In this document: piece after piece, positions 41,063 through 45,560 of the stretch | Position numbering within the stretch: position 1 is the stretch's first letter | Layout: each line of letters starts with the position of its first letter | Notes under the pieces: generated by a model | What the model was told of the DNA's origin: nothing | Seen by the model: the letters and a program-made list of their open reading frames with translations, nothing else | The model's database searches: none | Program-made: the position numbers and the translations under genes | NCBI GenBank assembly: GCA_030066085.1 | Contig: JASJCI010000025.1 | Location: 62,001 to 126,000 of the forward strand | Source of the DNA: Gammaproteobacteria bacterium | GTDB taxonomy: Bacteria; Pseudomonadota; Gammaproteobacteria; GCA-001735895 | DNA: 64,000 bases | Reading direction: 5' to 3'

Positions 41063-42949
41063 ATGCTGCAATTTGCCAGCCTTGCGCTGCGGCGCGCCGG
41101 TACCCTGCTGTTCGACGACGTCAGTTTTACCCTGCACGCGGGCCAGAAACTCGGCCTCACCGGCGCCAACGGTTGCGGCAAGTCGTCGCTGTTCGCGTTG
41201 ATCCAGGGTGAACTCGCGGCGGATGCCGGCGAGTTCGTCCTGCCGCGCGACTGGGTGATCGCGGCGGTGGCGCAGGAAACGCCGCTGGGCGCGGATCCCG
41301 CGCTCGAATATGTCATCGATGGCGATCGTGAACTGCGCGCGGTGCAGGCTCGCCTGCGAGACGCCGAGCAGGTGCAGGATGCAGCCGAGATCGCTGCCTG
41401 CCATGAACGGCTGCAGGAAATCGACGGCTACCAGGCGGAGGCGCGGGCGGCGCGCCTGCTCGACGGTCTCGGCTTCGAGCCGGGCGAAATTCGGCGGCCG
41501 CTGCGCGAGTTTTCCGGCGGCTGGATCATGCGCCTCAAGCTGGCGCGCGCGTTGATGTGCCGCTCCGACCTGCTGTTGCTCGACGAACCGACCAATCACC
41601 TCGACCTCGACGCCGTGATCTGGCTCGAGGGCTGGTTGCAGCGCTATTCCGGCACGCTGATGCTGATCTCGCACGATCGGGATTTCCTCGATGCCGTGGT
41701 CGAGCGGATCGCGCATGTCGAGCAGGGCGGTATACAACTGTACAGCGGTAATTACTCGGCCTTCGAGCGCCAGCGTGCGGAGCGGCTCGCGCAGCAGCAG
41801 GCGGCCTATGACAAGCAGCAGCAGAGCATTGCCCACATGCAGCGCTACATCGATCGTTTTCGCGCCAAGGCGACCAAGGCGCGCCAGGCCCAGAGTCGAA
41901 TCAAGGCGCTCGAGCGCCTGCAGCGGATCGCGCCCGCACACGTCGACTCGCCGTTCAGTTTCGAATTTCGCGACAGTGCCGATCTGCCGGCCTGGCTGGT
42001 CAAGCTCGACGGCGTCGCAACCGGTTACGGCCCGGGAGATGTGCTCGCTGGCGTCGACCTGACCCTGATGCCGGGAGAGCGCATCGGTTTGCTGGGCCTC
42101 AACGGCGCCGGTAAATCGACCTGTATCAAGCTGCTGGCGGACGAGCTCGAGCCGAGCGCGGGCAGGCTCGAGCGCGCGCGGGCGTTGCGTATCGGGTACT
42201 TCGCGCAACACCAGGTCGAGCAGCTCGACGGCGATGCCAGCCCGCTGCTGTCCCTGCAGCGGCTGGCGCCGGAGTTATCCGAGCGCGAACTGCGCGCTTA
42301 CCTCGGCGGCTTCAATTTTCGCGGCGACAAGGTGCTCGAAGCCACGCGAGTGTTCTCCGGGGGGGAGAAGGCGCGGCTGGTGCTGGCGTTGCTGATCTGG
42401 CTACGCCCCAACCTGCTGTTGCTCGACGAACCGACCAACCACCTGGACCTGGAGATGCGGCTGGCGCTGGACCGGGCGCTGCAGGGTTACGAGGGCTGCG
42501 TCATCCTGGTATCGCACGACCGGCACCTGCTTAACAGTGTCTGCGACGATTTTTACCTGGTCGACGGCGGGCGGGTAAACCCGTTTCGCGAGGGTCTCAC
42601 GGGATACCCCGGTTGGCTCGCGCGGCGCAAGCGAGATGGCGCAACGGCCCCGGCCGCCCCGACCGCACCGGTCGACGCGACCGCGTTGCGTCGTGAACTC
42701 AAGGCGCGCAGGGCGGAGCTCAACCGGGTCGAACGCGAGTTGACGCGTCTCGGCGATCGCCGGGACGCGCTCGATGCCGAACTCGGTGACGCGGCGCTGT
42801 ACAGTGACGCGCAGCGTGACCGGTTGCGCGAGCTGACGGCGCAGCGCGCCGAGACCGAGCGCGACCTGCAGGATTGCGAAGCGCGCTGGCTCGAGCTCGG
42901 CGAAGCCATCGAGGGGCTCGAACGGGGAGTGGTTACCCCGGCGCGCTAG
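41063..42949 (+). CDS. ABC-F family ATP-binding protein (YheS/Uup type)
   Basis: Two ABC cassettes: TGANGCGKSSLF and GLNGAGKSTCIK; LLLDEPTNHLDLDAVIWLE; C-terminal coiled coil. Confidence 0.94.
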   Translation: MLQFASLALRRAGTLLFDDVSFTLHAGQKLGLTGANGCGKSSLFALIQGELAADAGEFVLPRDWVIAAVAQETPLGADPALEYVIDGDRELRAVQARLRDAEQVQDAAEIAACHERLQEIDGYQAEARAARLLDGLGFEPGEIRRPLREFSGGWIMRLKLARALMCRSDLLLLDEPTNHLDLDAVIWLEGWLQRYSGTLMLISHDRDFLDAVVERIAHVEQGGIQLYSGNYSAFERQRAERLAQQQAAYDKQQQSIAHMQRYIDRFRAKATKARQAQSRIKALERLQRIAPAHVDSPFSFEFRDSADLPAWLVKLDGVATGYGPGDVLAGVDLTLMPGERIGLLGLNGAGKSTCIKLLADELEPSAGRLERARALRIGYFAQHQVEQLDGDASPLLSLQRLAPELSERELRAYLGGFNFRGDKVLEATRVFSGGEKARLVLALLIWLRPNLLLLDEPTNHLDLEMRLALDRALQGYEGCVILVSHDRHLLNSVCDDFYLVDGGRVNPFREGLTGYPGWLARRKRDGATAPAAPTAPVDATALRRELKARRAELNRVERELTRLGDRRDALDAELGDAALYSDAQRDRLRELTAQRAETERDLQDCEARWLELGEAIEGLERGVVTPAR

Positions 42950-44385
42950 CCGCCCTTGCAGCCGGAAACGATCTTGCCGAGCTTGCCCAGGGCCTCGACA
43001 TTGGCGTCGTTCCAGGGAAAGCCGCAATTGATGCGCAAAAAGTTGCGATAACGGCGGGTCGCGGAAAACAGGATGCCGGGGGTGATCGCGATGTTGTGTT
43101 CCAGTGCCCGGTTGAAAATATCGATGCTGTCGCAGTCGCTCGGCATCTCGACCCACAGTACGCTGCCGCCGGGCGGATTCGATACGCGGGTGCCCTCGGG
43201 GAAACTCCTGGCGATCAGGTAGCGGCCCTTTTCGACCTGCTCGCGCATCGCGATGCGCAGCCTTACCAGGTGACGGTCGTACTGGCCGCTGCTCAGGAAC
43301 TCGGCTATGGCGAGCTGGCTGATCGACGAAGTTGCGGACGACCAGGCCTGCTTGTACTGCAGGAATTTGTTGTGATAGCGACCCGCCACGACCCAGCCGA
43401 CGCGGTGCCCCGGCGCCAGGGTCTTGGAAAACGACGAACAGCTCAACACGATATCGTTCAGATCGTAGGACTTGGCCGGCCGCGGCGGTCGTTCACTGAA
43501 ATAAACGCTGCCGTAGACATCGTCCTCGATCAGCGGAATGTCGCGTTCCGCCAGCAGGTTGACCAACGCGCGTTTCTTGTCCTCGGGCATCTGCGAACCC
43601 AGCGGGTTGCTGGTGTTGGGGGACGCCAGCACCGCCTTGATATCCATGGTGTCGAAAGCCTCCTCCAGCGCTTCGAGGTCGAGCCCGGTTACCGGGTCGG
43701 TTTCTATTTCGACCGCCAGCATTCCCATCTGCTCGATCATGCGCAACACCGCGAAATAGGTCGGTGACTCCACCGCGATGATGTCGCCGCGCCTGGCAAC
43801 CGTGCGCAGGCTGATCGACAGCGCCTCGGTGGCGCCGGAGGTGATGATGATATCCTTCGCGTTAACCCGGGTATTGGTCAGCGCGTAGCGCTCCGCGATC
43901 TGTTTACGCAGCTTGGAGTCTCCGGGCGGGAACAGGTAGTCCATGCTCTTTTGCGGGTGACGGCTGATGATGCTGCGCGTGGCGCGCGTCAGCGACTTGA
44001 CCGGCATGAAATCCATCGACGGGTTGGAGGTGCCGAAAGGTGCGAGGCGCGGATTGTTGGCGTTGCGAAAGACTTCCTCGAACAGGCCGCCGAAGCGCAC
44101 GCGTCGGGGCTGGCCGGGTTTGGCGGAAGAGCTGGAAATGTCCGAAATCTGCTCGACCCGCGCATTGACGTAAAAACCGGACTGCGGTCGCGCGGTCAGC
44201 ACCCCCTGGTCCTCGAGGTTGACGTAAGACTGGCTCACGGTCGCGATACTGACGCCGAGTTGCTTGCTGAGCTTGCGCAGCGACGGCGCCTTGTCGCCGG
44301 GTCGGAGATCGCCCTTTTCGATGAGGTGATTGATGTAGCGTGAGACCTGGTCGTACTTATAAGTCTGCTGTTGGCTAACTGTCAT
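42946..44385 (-). CDS. MocR-type (GntR HTH + aminotransferase fold) regulator
   Basis: N-terminal KYDQVSRYINHLIEKGDLRPGDKAPSLRKLSKQLGVSIATVSQSYVNLEDQG; aminotransferase core with LSCSSFSKTLAPGHRVGWVV. Confidence 0.92.
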   Translation of the reverse strand: MTVSQQQTYKYDQVSRYINHLIEKGDLRPGDKAPSLRKLSKQLGVSIATVSQSYVNLEDQGVLTARPQSGFYVNARVEQISDISSSSAKPGQPRRVRFGGLFEEVFRNANNPRLAPFGTSNPSMDFMPVKSLTRATRSIISRHPQKSMDYLFPPGDSKLRKQIAERYALTNTRVNAKDIIITSGATEALSISLRTVARRGDIIAVESPTYFAVLRMIEQMGMLAVEIETDPVTGLDLEALEEAFDTMDIKAVLASPNTSNPLGSQMPEDKKRALVNLLAERDIPLIEDDVYGSVYFSERPPRPAKSYDLNDIVLSCSSFSKTLAPGHRVGWVVAGRYHNKFLQYKQAWSSATSSISQLAIAEFLSSGQYDRHLVRLRIAMREQVEKGRYLIARSFPEGTRVSNPPGGSVLWVEMPSDCDSIDIFNRALEHNIAITPGILFSATRRYRNFLRINCGFPWNDANVEALGKLGKIVSGCKGG

Positions 44386-44397
44386 GGTGCGGAGTGA

Positions 44398-44446
44398 ACT
44401 GTACAGTGCGGATTGTTAGAAAATTGTAACTGTTATTGTAACAGTT
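44398..44446. promoter_or_regulatory. Candidate MocR operators: ACTGTACAGT and AACTGTT-ATTGT-AACAGTT
   Basis: Perfect palindromes at 44398-44407 and 44428-44446 upstream of the MocR start. Confidence 0.5.
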
Positions 44447-44459
44447 CCCCCCATATTAT

Positions 44460-44588
44460 TGCACCATCGCCAAAGCGATCGCCGGCCACGCTGGTAATCA
44501 AGGCGACAAGTTGAAACCCCTTCCTCCTCCTCCTCAGGTTTTGACTTAACAGTTAGCCCGCTCGATAACACCGAGCGGGCTTTTTTTT
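44460..44588 (+). ncRNA. Candidate sRNA with C-rich anti-Shine-Dalgarno-like loop and intrinsic terminator
   Basis: AAGTTGAAACC (44508-44518) pairs fully, with two GU pairs, with GGTTTTGACTT (44537-44547), presenting CCTTCCTCCTCCTCCTCA. Terminator follows. 5' end uncertain; possible -10 TATTAT 44454-44459. Confidence 0.5.
44555..44588 (+). terminator. Strong rho-independent terminator
   Basis: GCCCGCTCG-ATAACAC-CGAGCGGGC followed by an 8-T run. Confidence 0.88.
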
Positions 44589-44677
44589 GCGCGTCATGCG
44601 CGGACGAGGTGGATGTCGCGCGTTTGCGCGCCCCGACTGGCGGGGCGACAAAACGCGAGGCCTGGTCTTCGCGGATC

Positions 44678-44754
44678 TGGCGCGCTCGGCGGGATTCGAA
44701 CCCACGACCTTTGGCTTCGGAGGCCAACACTCTATCCAACTGAGCTACGAGCGC
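44678..44754 (-). tRNA. tRNA-Arg (anticodon CCG), CCA encoded
   Basis: Minus strand GCGCTCGTAGCTCAGTTGGATAGAGTGTTGGCCTCCGAAGCCAAAGGTCGTGGGTTCGAATCCCGCCGAGCGCGCCA; acceptor, anticodon and TpsiC stems all pair. Confidence 0.97.
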
Positions 44755-44899: not shown

Positions 44900-45382
44900 G
44901 TGAGTTCCGCGCACGAAGACGATACGCAAGCGAACCTGATGTCGCCGCAAAACGCCACCGTCCTGGTGGGCCTGCTGTTACTGGCGGTCATTGTCGGGGA
45001 AGTGTTGCTGGCGCCGGCCGACGAGGCGGCGATGCCGGTCGAGCCGACCGCGGAAGAAATCGCCATGCGTATCGAACCGGTGGTCTCGCTGGCCGATATG
45101 CGCAGCGTTGCCAGCATGGCCTCGGTATCTGCCGGCAGCGCCAACCAGACGCCCGACCAGATGTACCAGAGTGCCTGTCTCGCCTGCCACACCACCGGTG
45201 CCGCCGGTGCACCGAAGATCGGTGATGCCGGCGACTGGACCGAACGTCTCGGCAAGGGCCTCGACGCGCTGGTCGCCTCCGCGATCAACGGTATCGGTGC
45301 AATGCCGGCACGCGGTGGATCCCAGCTCGACGACGGCCAGATCCGCGCCGTGGTCGAATACATTCTCGATAATTCCAAGTGA
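44900..45382 (+). CDS. Membrane-anchored c-type cytochrome (cytochrome c5-like)
   Basis: YQSACLACHTTGAAGAPKIGDAGDW; GAMPARGG; GTG start at 44900 or ATG upstream at 44858. Confidence 0.9.
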   Translation: MSSAHEDDTQANLMSPQNATVLVGLLLLAVIVGEVLLAPADEAAMPVEPTAEEIAMRIEPVVSLADMRSVASMASVSAGSANQTPDQMYQSACLACHTTGAAGAPKIGDAGDWTERLGKGLDALVASAINGIGAMPARGGSQLDDGQIRAVVEYILDNSK

Positions 45383-45404: not shown

Positions 45405-45422
45405 ATCCCGGAAGTTGCGCAA

Positions 45423-45560
45423 GCAACTACCCGGGATCTCACGATAATCCACCGGTTGTACTCCACGGCACGCGCAGCAACTACCCGGGATCTCACGATA
45501 AACCGCCGGTTGCTCTCCACCGCGCATGCAGCGACTGGCCGGGACCGCCCGGCATCTACT
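45423..45560. repeat. ~2.5 copies of a 54-bp tandem repeat
   Basis: GCAACTACCCGGGATCTCACGATAA at 45423 and 45477; decayed third copy GCGACTGGCCGGGACCG at 45531; exact 54-nt spacing. Confidence 0.8.

Follow-up and report, generated by a model that had tools for sequence, protein, structure and literature searches.

What does an intrinsic terminator end when no gene leads into it? In the gammaproteobacterial DNA analysed here (a stretch of 64,000 nucleotides, referred to as the window) such a terminator lies on the plus strand, between the start of a MocR-family gene and a tRNA-Arg gene. An earlier note had proposed that it ends a stand-alone small RNA, controlled by the divergent MocR protein and carrying a C-rich loop complementary to Shine-Dalgarno (SD) sequences. 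Comparison with related genomes leads us to consider it probable that the locus encodes a MocR-controlled anti-SD RNA which is a remnant of the 3'UTR of a DUF1127 mRNA and is co-regulated with DUF1127 in trans.

Structure and conservation of the RNA

The terminator is present as described, and no plus-strand coding sequence feeds into the predicted RNA, the nearest one upstream being an ABC-F gene that ends at 42949. The putative transcript (Table 1) folds into three hairpins, a 5' hairpin, a stem with the C-rich loop and the intrinsic terminator, and the fold has a z-score of -5.1, with none of 200 dinucleotide shuffles equally stable. The claimed 11-bp stem with two GU pairs was found again: AAGUUGAAACC (44508-44518) pairs with GGUUUUGACUU (44537-44547) and encloses the loop CCUUCCUCCUCCUCCUCA, which is complementary to GGAGG ribosome-binding sites. 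A small ATCGC-CAAA-GCGAT hairpin, also noticed earlier, occurs in the sequence but is not the conserved feature; conserved instead is a longer 5' hairpin, in which the sequence varies while pairing is mostly kept, with some compensatory changes.

Table 1. Features of the mocR-RNA locus (window coordinates)
Feature	Position	Strand	Remarks
MocR-family regulator, divergent from the RNA	42946..44385	-	479 aa; GntR wHTH and aminotransferase-like domain, SFSKT lysine motif
Bipartite MocR-type operator, 50 bp	44397..44446	+	direct box AACTGT + N22 + TGTAACTGTTATTGTAACAGTT (second direct and inverted box)
Inverted repeat AACTGTTA-TTG-TAACAGTT in operator	44428..44446	+	at the -35 position of the RNA promoter
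-10 element TATTAT	44454..44459	+	7 bp past the operator
Predicted sRNA	44466..44588	+	~123 nt; start inferred from the -10 element, end from the terminator
5' hairpin of the RNA	44467..44506	+	fold conserved, sequence variable
11-bp stem with C-rich loop CCUUCCUCCUCCUCCUCA	44508..44547; loop 44519-44536	+	from folding and alignment
Intrinsic terminator GCCCGCUCG-AUAACAC-CGAGCGGGC + U-tract	44555..44588	+	paired part 44555-44581, then U7-8
tRNA-Arg(CCG)	44678-44754	-	

A DNA search of relatives, which are MAGs with short contigs, detected the RNA locus in almost every genome of the window's genus, which is marine. A covariance model of the C-loop hairpin and terminator (R1), built from 23 sequences that all came from the window's genus (g1), matched 29 of the 31 genus genomes with 69-97 bits; in the two genomes lacking the RNA (G026, G008) a contig end cuts mocR itself. 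At 28 of the 29 RNA loci MocR was divergently adjacent, and the tRNA/cytochrome side varied. In the 23-sequence alignment the C-loop and its stem are near-invariant while MocR identity drops to 71%, and relatives that had kept the terminator and lost the loop or stem, the pattern named earlier as speaking against the RNA, were not seen. Seven of the 11 stem pairs are invariant and none shows a compensatory change, thus the stem is supported by conservation and consistent folding (of 28 homologs that were folded, 27 form it and leave the loop unpaired), not by covariation. The terminator does covary, with compensatory changes in 6 of 9 counted pairs (36 cells vs 10.9 in shuffles).

A search of a class sample, in which few candidates were scored per genome and distant homologs may be missed, gave no strong homologs outside the genus; those of the weak matches that were inspected were ordinary terminators without a C-loop. 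Scanned with a sequence pattern, the GTDB collection gave 26 gammaproteobacterial genome records, the Olavius algarvensis Gamma 3 symbiont among them, and 4 unrelated matches against about 3 expected by chance (our own estimate). No Rfam family reached its threshold in the window. Of the weak matches there, two were the best: the ar14 model (RF02344) scored 27.6 bits in the window and at most 36.4 bits in 16 relatives (gathering threshold 58.8), and suhB/mmgR (RF00519) 26.4 bits in the window and 32.3 bits in the best relative (gathering threshold 41). With all matches sub-threshold in the window and relatives, membership of an Rfam family was rejected.

Some repeats were noted in the surroundings. 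Downstream of the RNA terminator many relatives (L013, L015, L021, L023, L011, L016) have long inverted-repeat elements of the GAGCTACTGCGCTTGCATAG... type, MITE- or REP-like; at one of them Rfam gives a miRNA match that is below threshold and spurious. In the window a 54-nt unit is present past the cytochrome c gene in two tandem copies (45422-45529, 85% identical), adjoined by a sub-threshold psRNA14-like hairpin at 45378.

The MocR protein and its predicted operator

Both Pfam domains of the regulator scored above their cut-offs (GntR, PF00392, 56 bits; Aminotran_1_2, PF00155, 101 bits) and GabR structures match it over both; the combination of a fold-type-I aminotransferase domain with a GntR wHTH identifies the protein as MocR-like. 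A 1:1 ortholog was found in all 41 family genomes. Assignment to PdxR was rejected (NCBIfam PdxR 260.8 bits, under the equivalog cut-off of 320). PdxR and GabR are similar in domain architecture and operator layout, but they act on vitamin B6 or GABA genes, whereas the predicted targets here are an sRNA and DUF1127. The mocR leader seems to be very short and no Shine-Dalgarno sequence precedes the ATG (44360-44400); the start may be leaderless or elsewhere.

Two direct boxes and one inverted box form the commonest MocR operator layout (PMC5320631), and direct boxes with an inverted box near the mocR promoter are also what was found here. Two perfect palindromes had been reported between the divergent transcripts. 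The second one held, with 8-bp arms AACTGTTA and TAACAGTT, a 3-nt spacer and conservation among relatives. The first, ACTGTACAGT, had to be abandoned as a palindrome because relatives read the non-palindromic AACTGTATTGTA; it corresponds to a direct box of the operator.

Taken by itself, the palindromic part is found at mocR/RNA and at hardly any other place. When three mismatches at most were tolerated, the complete 50-bp pattern turned up in 39 of 41 family genomes, and the reversed-pattern control gave no hit. Each of the 18 sites not linked to mocR precedes a same-strand DUF1127 gene, at a distance of 133-199 bp from the DUF1127 domain. Taking into account that the pattern had been built from few inspected sites (four DUF1127 loci and the RNA locus), most of these 18 are independent. 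One of them is in the window's own genome (G000:C16:136358-136407). The RNA, earlier considered the sole divergent partner of the MocR system, thus shares its operator with DUF1127 in trans. A wide MocR regulon was rejected, the operator being confined to mocR/RNA and DUF1127 in the 41 family genomes. The operator-bearing DUF1127 gene of the window's genome (L233, G000:C16:136074-136407) adjoins an ABC-transporter-like gene, and the sequence downstream of it recurs in G016, G007 and G009.

The -10 element of the RNA promoter is a good one, but no -35 consensus was detected, and the best -35 score equals that of random sequence (2.93 vs 2.97). The lack of this element together with the inverted box at its position favours MocR as an activator, and activation of the RNA is the most likely sign of control as judged from the promoter layout. 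Overlap of the first operator box with the mocR promoter region suggests that MocR may repress its own gene.

Probable origin of the RNA from a DUF1127 mRNA

Sister genera g2 and g3 have this operator as well, in front of a DUF1127 gene that diverges from the mocR ortholog (60-62% identity). The encoded proteins have ~67-70 aa and scored over the PF06568 cut-off in all three cases tested. The order is operator, DUF1127, C-rich-loop hairpin, terminator, the hairpin being in the 3'UTR. In 6 of 10 sister 3'UTRs a hairpin with 5 or more stem base pairs had CCCUC or CCUCC in its loop, vs 0.2 expected from shuffles; the count is to be taken as indicative, the motif having been picked after viewing these 3'UTRs. 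Five sister genomes (G038, G035, G039, G032, G034) gave a hit with the g1-only model R1 at this hairpin region, in divergent orientation to mocR, and in G038 and G035 the hit started exactly at the hairpin. The loop end CCUCAG is found in most members of both groups; apart from promoter, loop and position, the RNA and the sister 3'UTRs have low sequence identity.

More remote MocR orthologs, in eight genomes (G127, G250, G306, G196, G091, G333, G124, G054), also face DUF1127, and in E. coli yjiR (MocR) diverges from yjiS (DUF1127). A C-rich loop 3'UTR was not evident in the distant MocR-DUF1127 pairs. Homologs of about 39-44% identity were treated as paralogs; DUF1127 is mostly not adjacent to them, except in G124, G054 and at E. 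coli yjiR. We presume that a MocR gene facing DUF1127 is the ancestral arrangement. The MocR tree groups the stand-alone-RNA genomes as a monophyletic clade (100/100), which has g3 as its sister and lies within lineages where DUF1127 is adjacent. On this tree the stand-alone RNA is a single derived state, and tree and gene order together give the replacement and its direction, from DUF1127 to RNA. These results and the arrangement in the sister genera suggest that the DUF1127 coding sequence next to mocR was most likely lost once, while the promoter and the RNA of the 3'UTR were kept. The protein is most likely supplied by another DUF1127 copy with this operator, which G038 and G039 already possess. 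In several g1 members the mRNA of the unlinked DUF1127 gene has a C-rich stretch ahead of the terminator; the unlinked gene of the window's own genome has no C-rich 3'UTR. Neither DUF1127 in trans nor the probable origin of the RNA from a 3'UTR had been seen in the earlier reading.

The Olavius algarvensis Gamma 3 symbiont (G029) has a frameshifted mocR and an RNA that is parted from its promoter (loci L188, C1:416500-420500, and L187, C1:83000-87000). The broken ends have matching insertion-sequence ends CACTGCTGTCCGGAAT and a common 10-bp CGGTGCGGCA, as for a target duplication. An IS-like insertion may have separated promoter and RNA, the alternative being a scaffold error. Joint loss of mocR and of the link between RNA and promoter, as read from this assembly, fits one functional unit.

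C-rich loops beyond the family and possible targets

Beyond the family, CCUCCU or UCCUCC was found up to 100 nt past the stop codon in 6 of 26 DUF1127 genes, compared with 3 of 273 control windows; shuffles gave 1.8 expected, and 4 of 500 were as high. Three of the six cases look real. G242 (L310, C13:37159-37236) has a 12-bp stem with the loop ACUCCUCCUCCUC after the DUF1127 stop, and UCCUCCUCC runs lie just past the DUF1127 stop in G133:C23 (L323) and G253:C182 (L322). Post-stop CCUCCUCC runs or a C-loop hairpin were thus seen at DUF1127 genes of other gammaproteobacterial families, and such runs extend the DUF1127/anti-SD link beyond alphaproteobacteria.

GGAGG-type start regions are common. 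Among the genomes compared, GAGGAGGAGG occurred before ATG only sporadically, and no start site with GGAGGAGG recurred in more than two genomes, so a single conserved target was not found with either pattern. The C-loop is complementary to SD motifs, and no conserved start site with extended complementarity was detected, which suggests that the RNA acts broadly by short pairing or that its targets are invisible to a pattern test.

Discussion

The MocR protein, presumably a PLP-type sensor, would bind the 50-bp operator, repress mocR and most likely activate the divergent promoter, from which the stand-alone RNA would be transcribed. Its exposed CCUCCUCCUCCUC loop would pair with GGAGG-type ribosome-binding sites and lower translation of the mRNAs. 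The ancestral transcript at this place was probably a DUF1127 mRNA, whose coding sequence disappeared in the genus and left promoter, C-loop hairpin and terminator in place. With DUF1127 protein still made in the same cells, from a second locus that this MocR operator precedes, RNA and protein would remain one regulon and might act jointly. Conservation, synteny, the operator, the invariant loop and the covarying terminator uphold the MocR-linked, stand-alone anti-SD RNA of the earlier proposal; its transcription, the binding of MocR and the pairing with ribosome-binding sites are predictions.

It is very improbable that there is no functional RNA and that terminator and hairpin are conserved only as DNA or as a side effect of the mocR promoter region, given a 36-nt hairpin that stays near-invariant over the whole range of MocR divergence, the compensatory changes in the terminator, the unpaired loop and a promoter of its own. 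The MocR-controlled RNA could also be real and yet not derive from the DUF1127 3'UTR, DUF1127 having moved and an independent C-loop RNA having arisen or been inserted. Such an origin would agree with the differences in stem sequence and 5' domain between the RNA and the sister-genus 3'UTRs. We find it quite unlikely, because promoter, position and order (C-loop hairpin, then terminator) are the same in both groups, the CCUCAG loop end is mostly common to them, R1 recognises the sister hairpins, and for one loop type to have arisen twice at one site is less likely than descent.

Another reading concerns the role of the RNA: the C-loop might bind a protein or serve RNA processing, for example as substrate or titrator of the DUF1127 protein or Hfq, and the RNA would then regulate that protein and not mRNAs. 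CcaF1 matures the CcsR RNAs and alters their level (PMC10253847), one operator is common to the RNA and DUF1127, and a conserved mRNA target was not found, all of which would suit such a role. Against it stand the loop, an exact SD complement conserved as such like the known anti-SD sRNAs, and the contested RNA binding of DUF1127 (PMC11707872); we regard this reading as unlikely. The preferred interpretation remains an anti-SD RNA left behind by a DUF1127 mRNA.

In Rhodobacter the DUF1127 protein CcaF1 is co-transcribed with the CcsR sRNAs, and this alphaproteobacterial DUF1127-CcsR association represents the CIN1 locus (PMC10253847). RNA association of Salmonella YjiS, a DUF1127 protein, was not seen (PMC11707872). 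The CcaF1-CcsR1-4, 'cuckoo' RNA and ar14 systems also have anti-SD CCUCCUCC loops tied to DUF1127 and a C-loop hairpin followed by a terminator, and the RNA studied here likewise has the CCUCCUCC anti-SD motif in a hairpin loop. ar14/CcsR are alphaproteobacterial with an RpoH-type promoter and maturation by RNase E, whereas the present RNA is gammaproteobacterial with a MocR operator; CcsR lies directly 3' of DUF1127 and is co-transcribed with it, whereas the g1 RNA stands alone with DUF1127 unlinked, adjacency being confined to the sister genera. In our best reading of these comparisons the RNA is outside the ar14 family although it would work like Rhodobacter CcaF1-CcsR. In E. coli and Salmonella MocR (yjiR) diverges from DUF1127 (yjiS), whereas here the RNA replaces the coding sequence; no C-rich loop was seen after E. 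coli yjiS and the operator motif was not evident in E. coli. Xanthomonas sX13, similar by description, is a short sRNA whose C-rich loops act on G-rich translation start regions, and we know of no link between it and MocR or DUF1127. Opinions differ on the function of the widespread DUF1127 proteins, with RNA binding described in Rhodobacter and a role as membrane or sensor-kinase partner elsewhere. A literature search for stand-alone 3'UTR-derived sRNAs found nothing.

More tentatively, the locus may represent the birth of an sRNA by loss of a coding sequence, after which a PLP-sensing MocR has kept the RNA and DUF1127 as a split module tuning GGAGG-led mRNAs. An anti-SD RNA and DUF1127 that are physically apart, yet under one dedicated operator genus-wide, argue for a working partnership, and since the loci are separated, each can be deleted and tested alone. 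The largely uncharacterised yjiR-type MocR regulators would become tied to post-transcriptional control, a connection absent from the MocR regulon paper that was searched. In the genus and its sister genera one could also follow clearly how part of a 3'UTR turned into an sRNA gene of its own.
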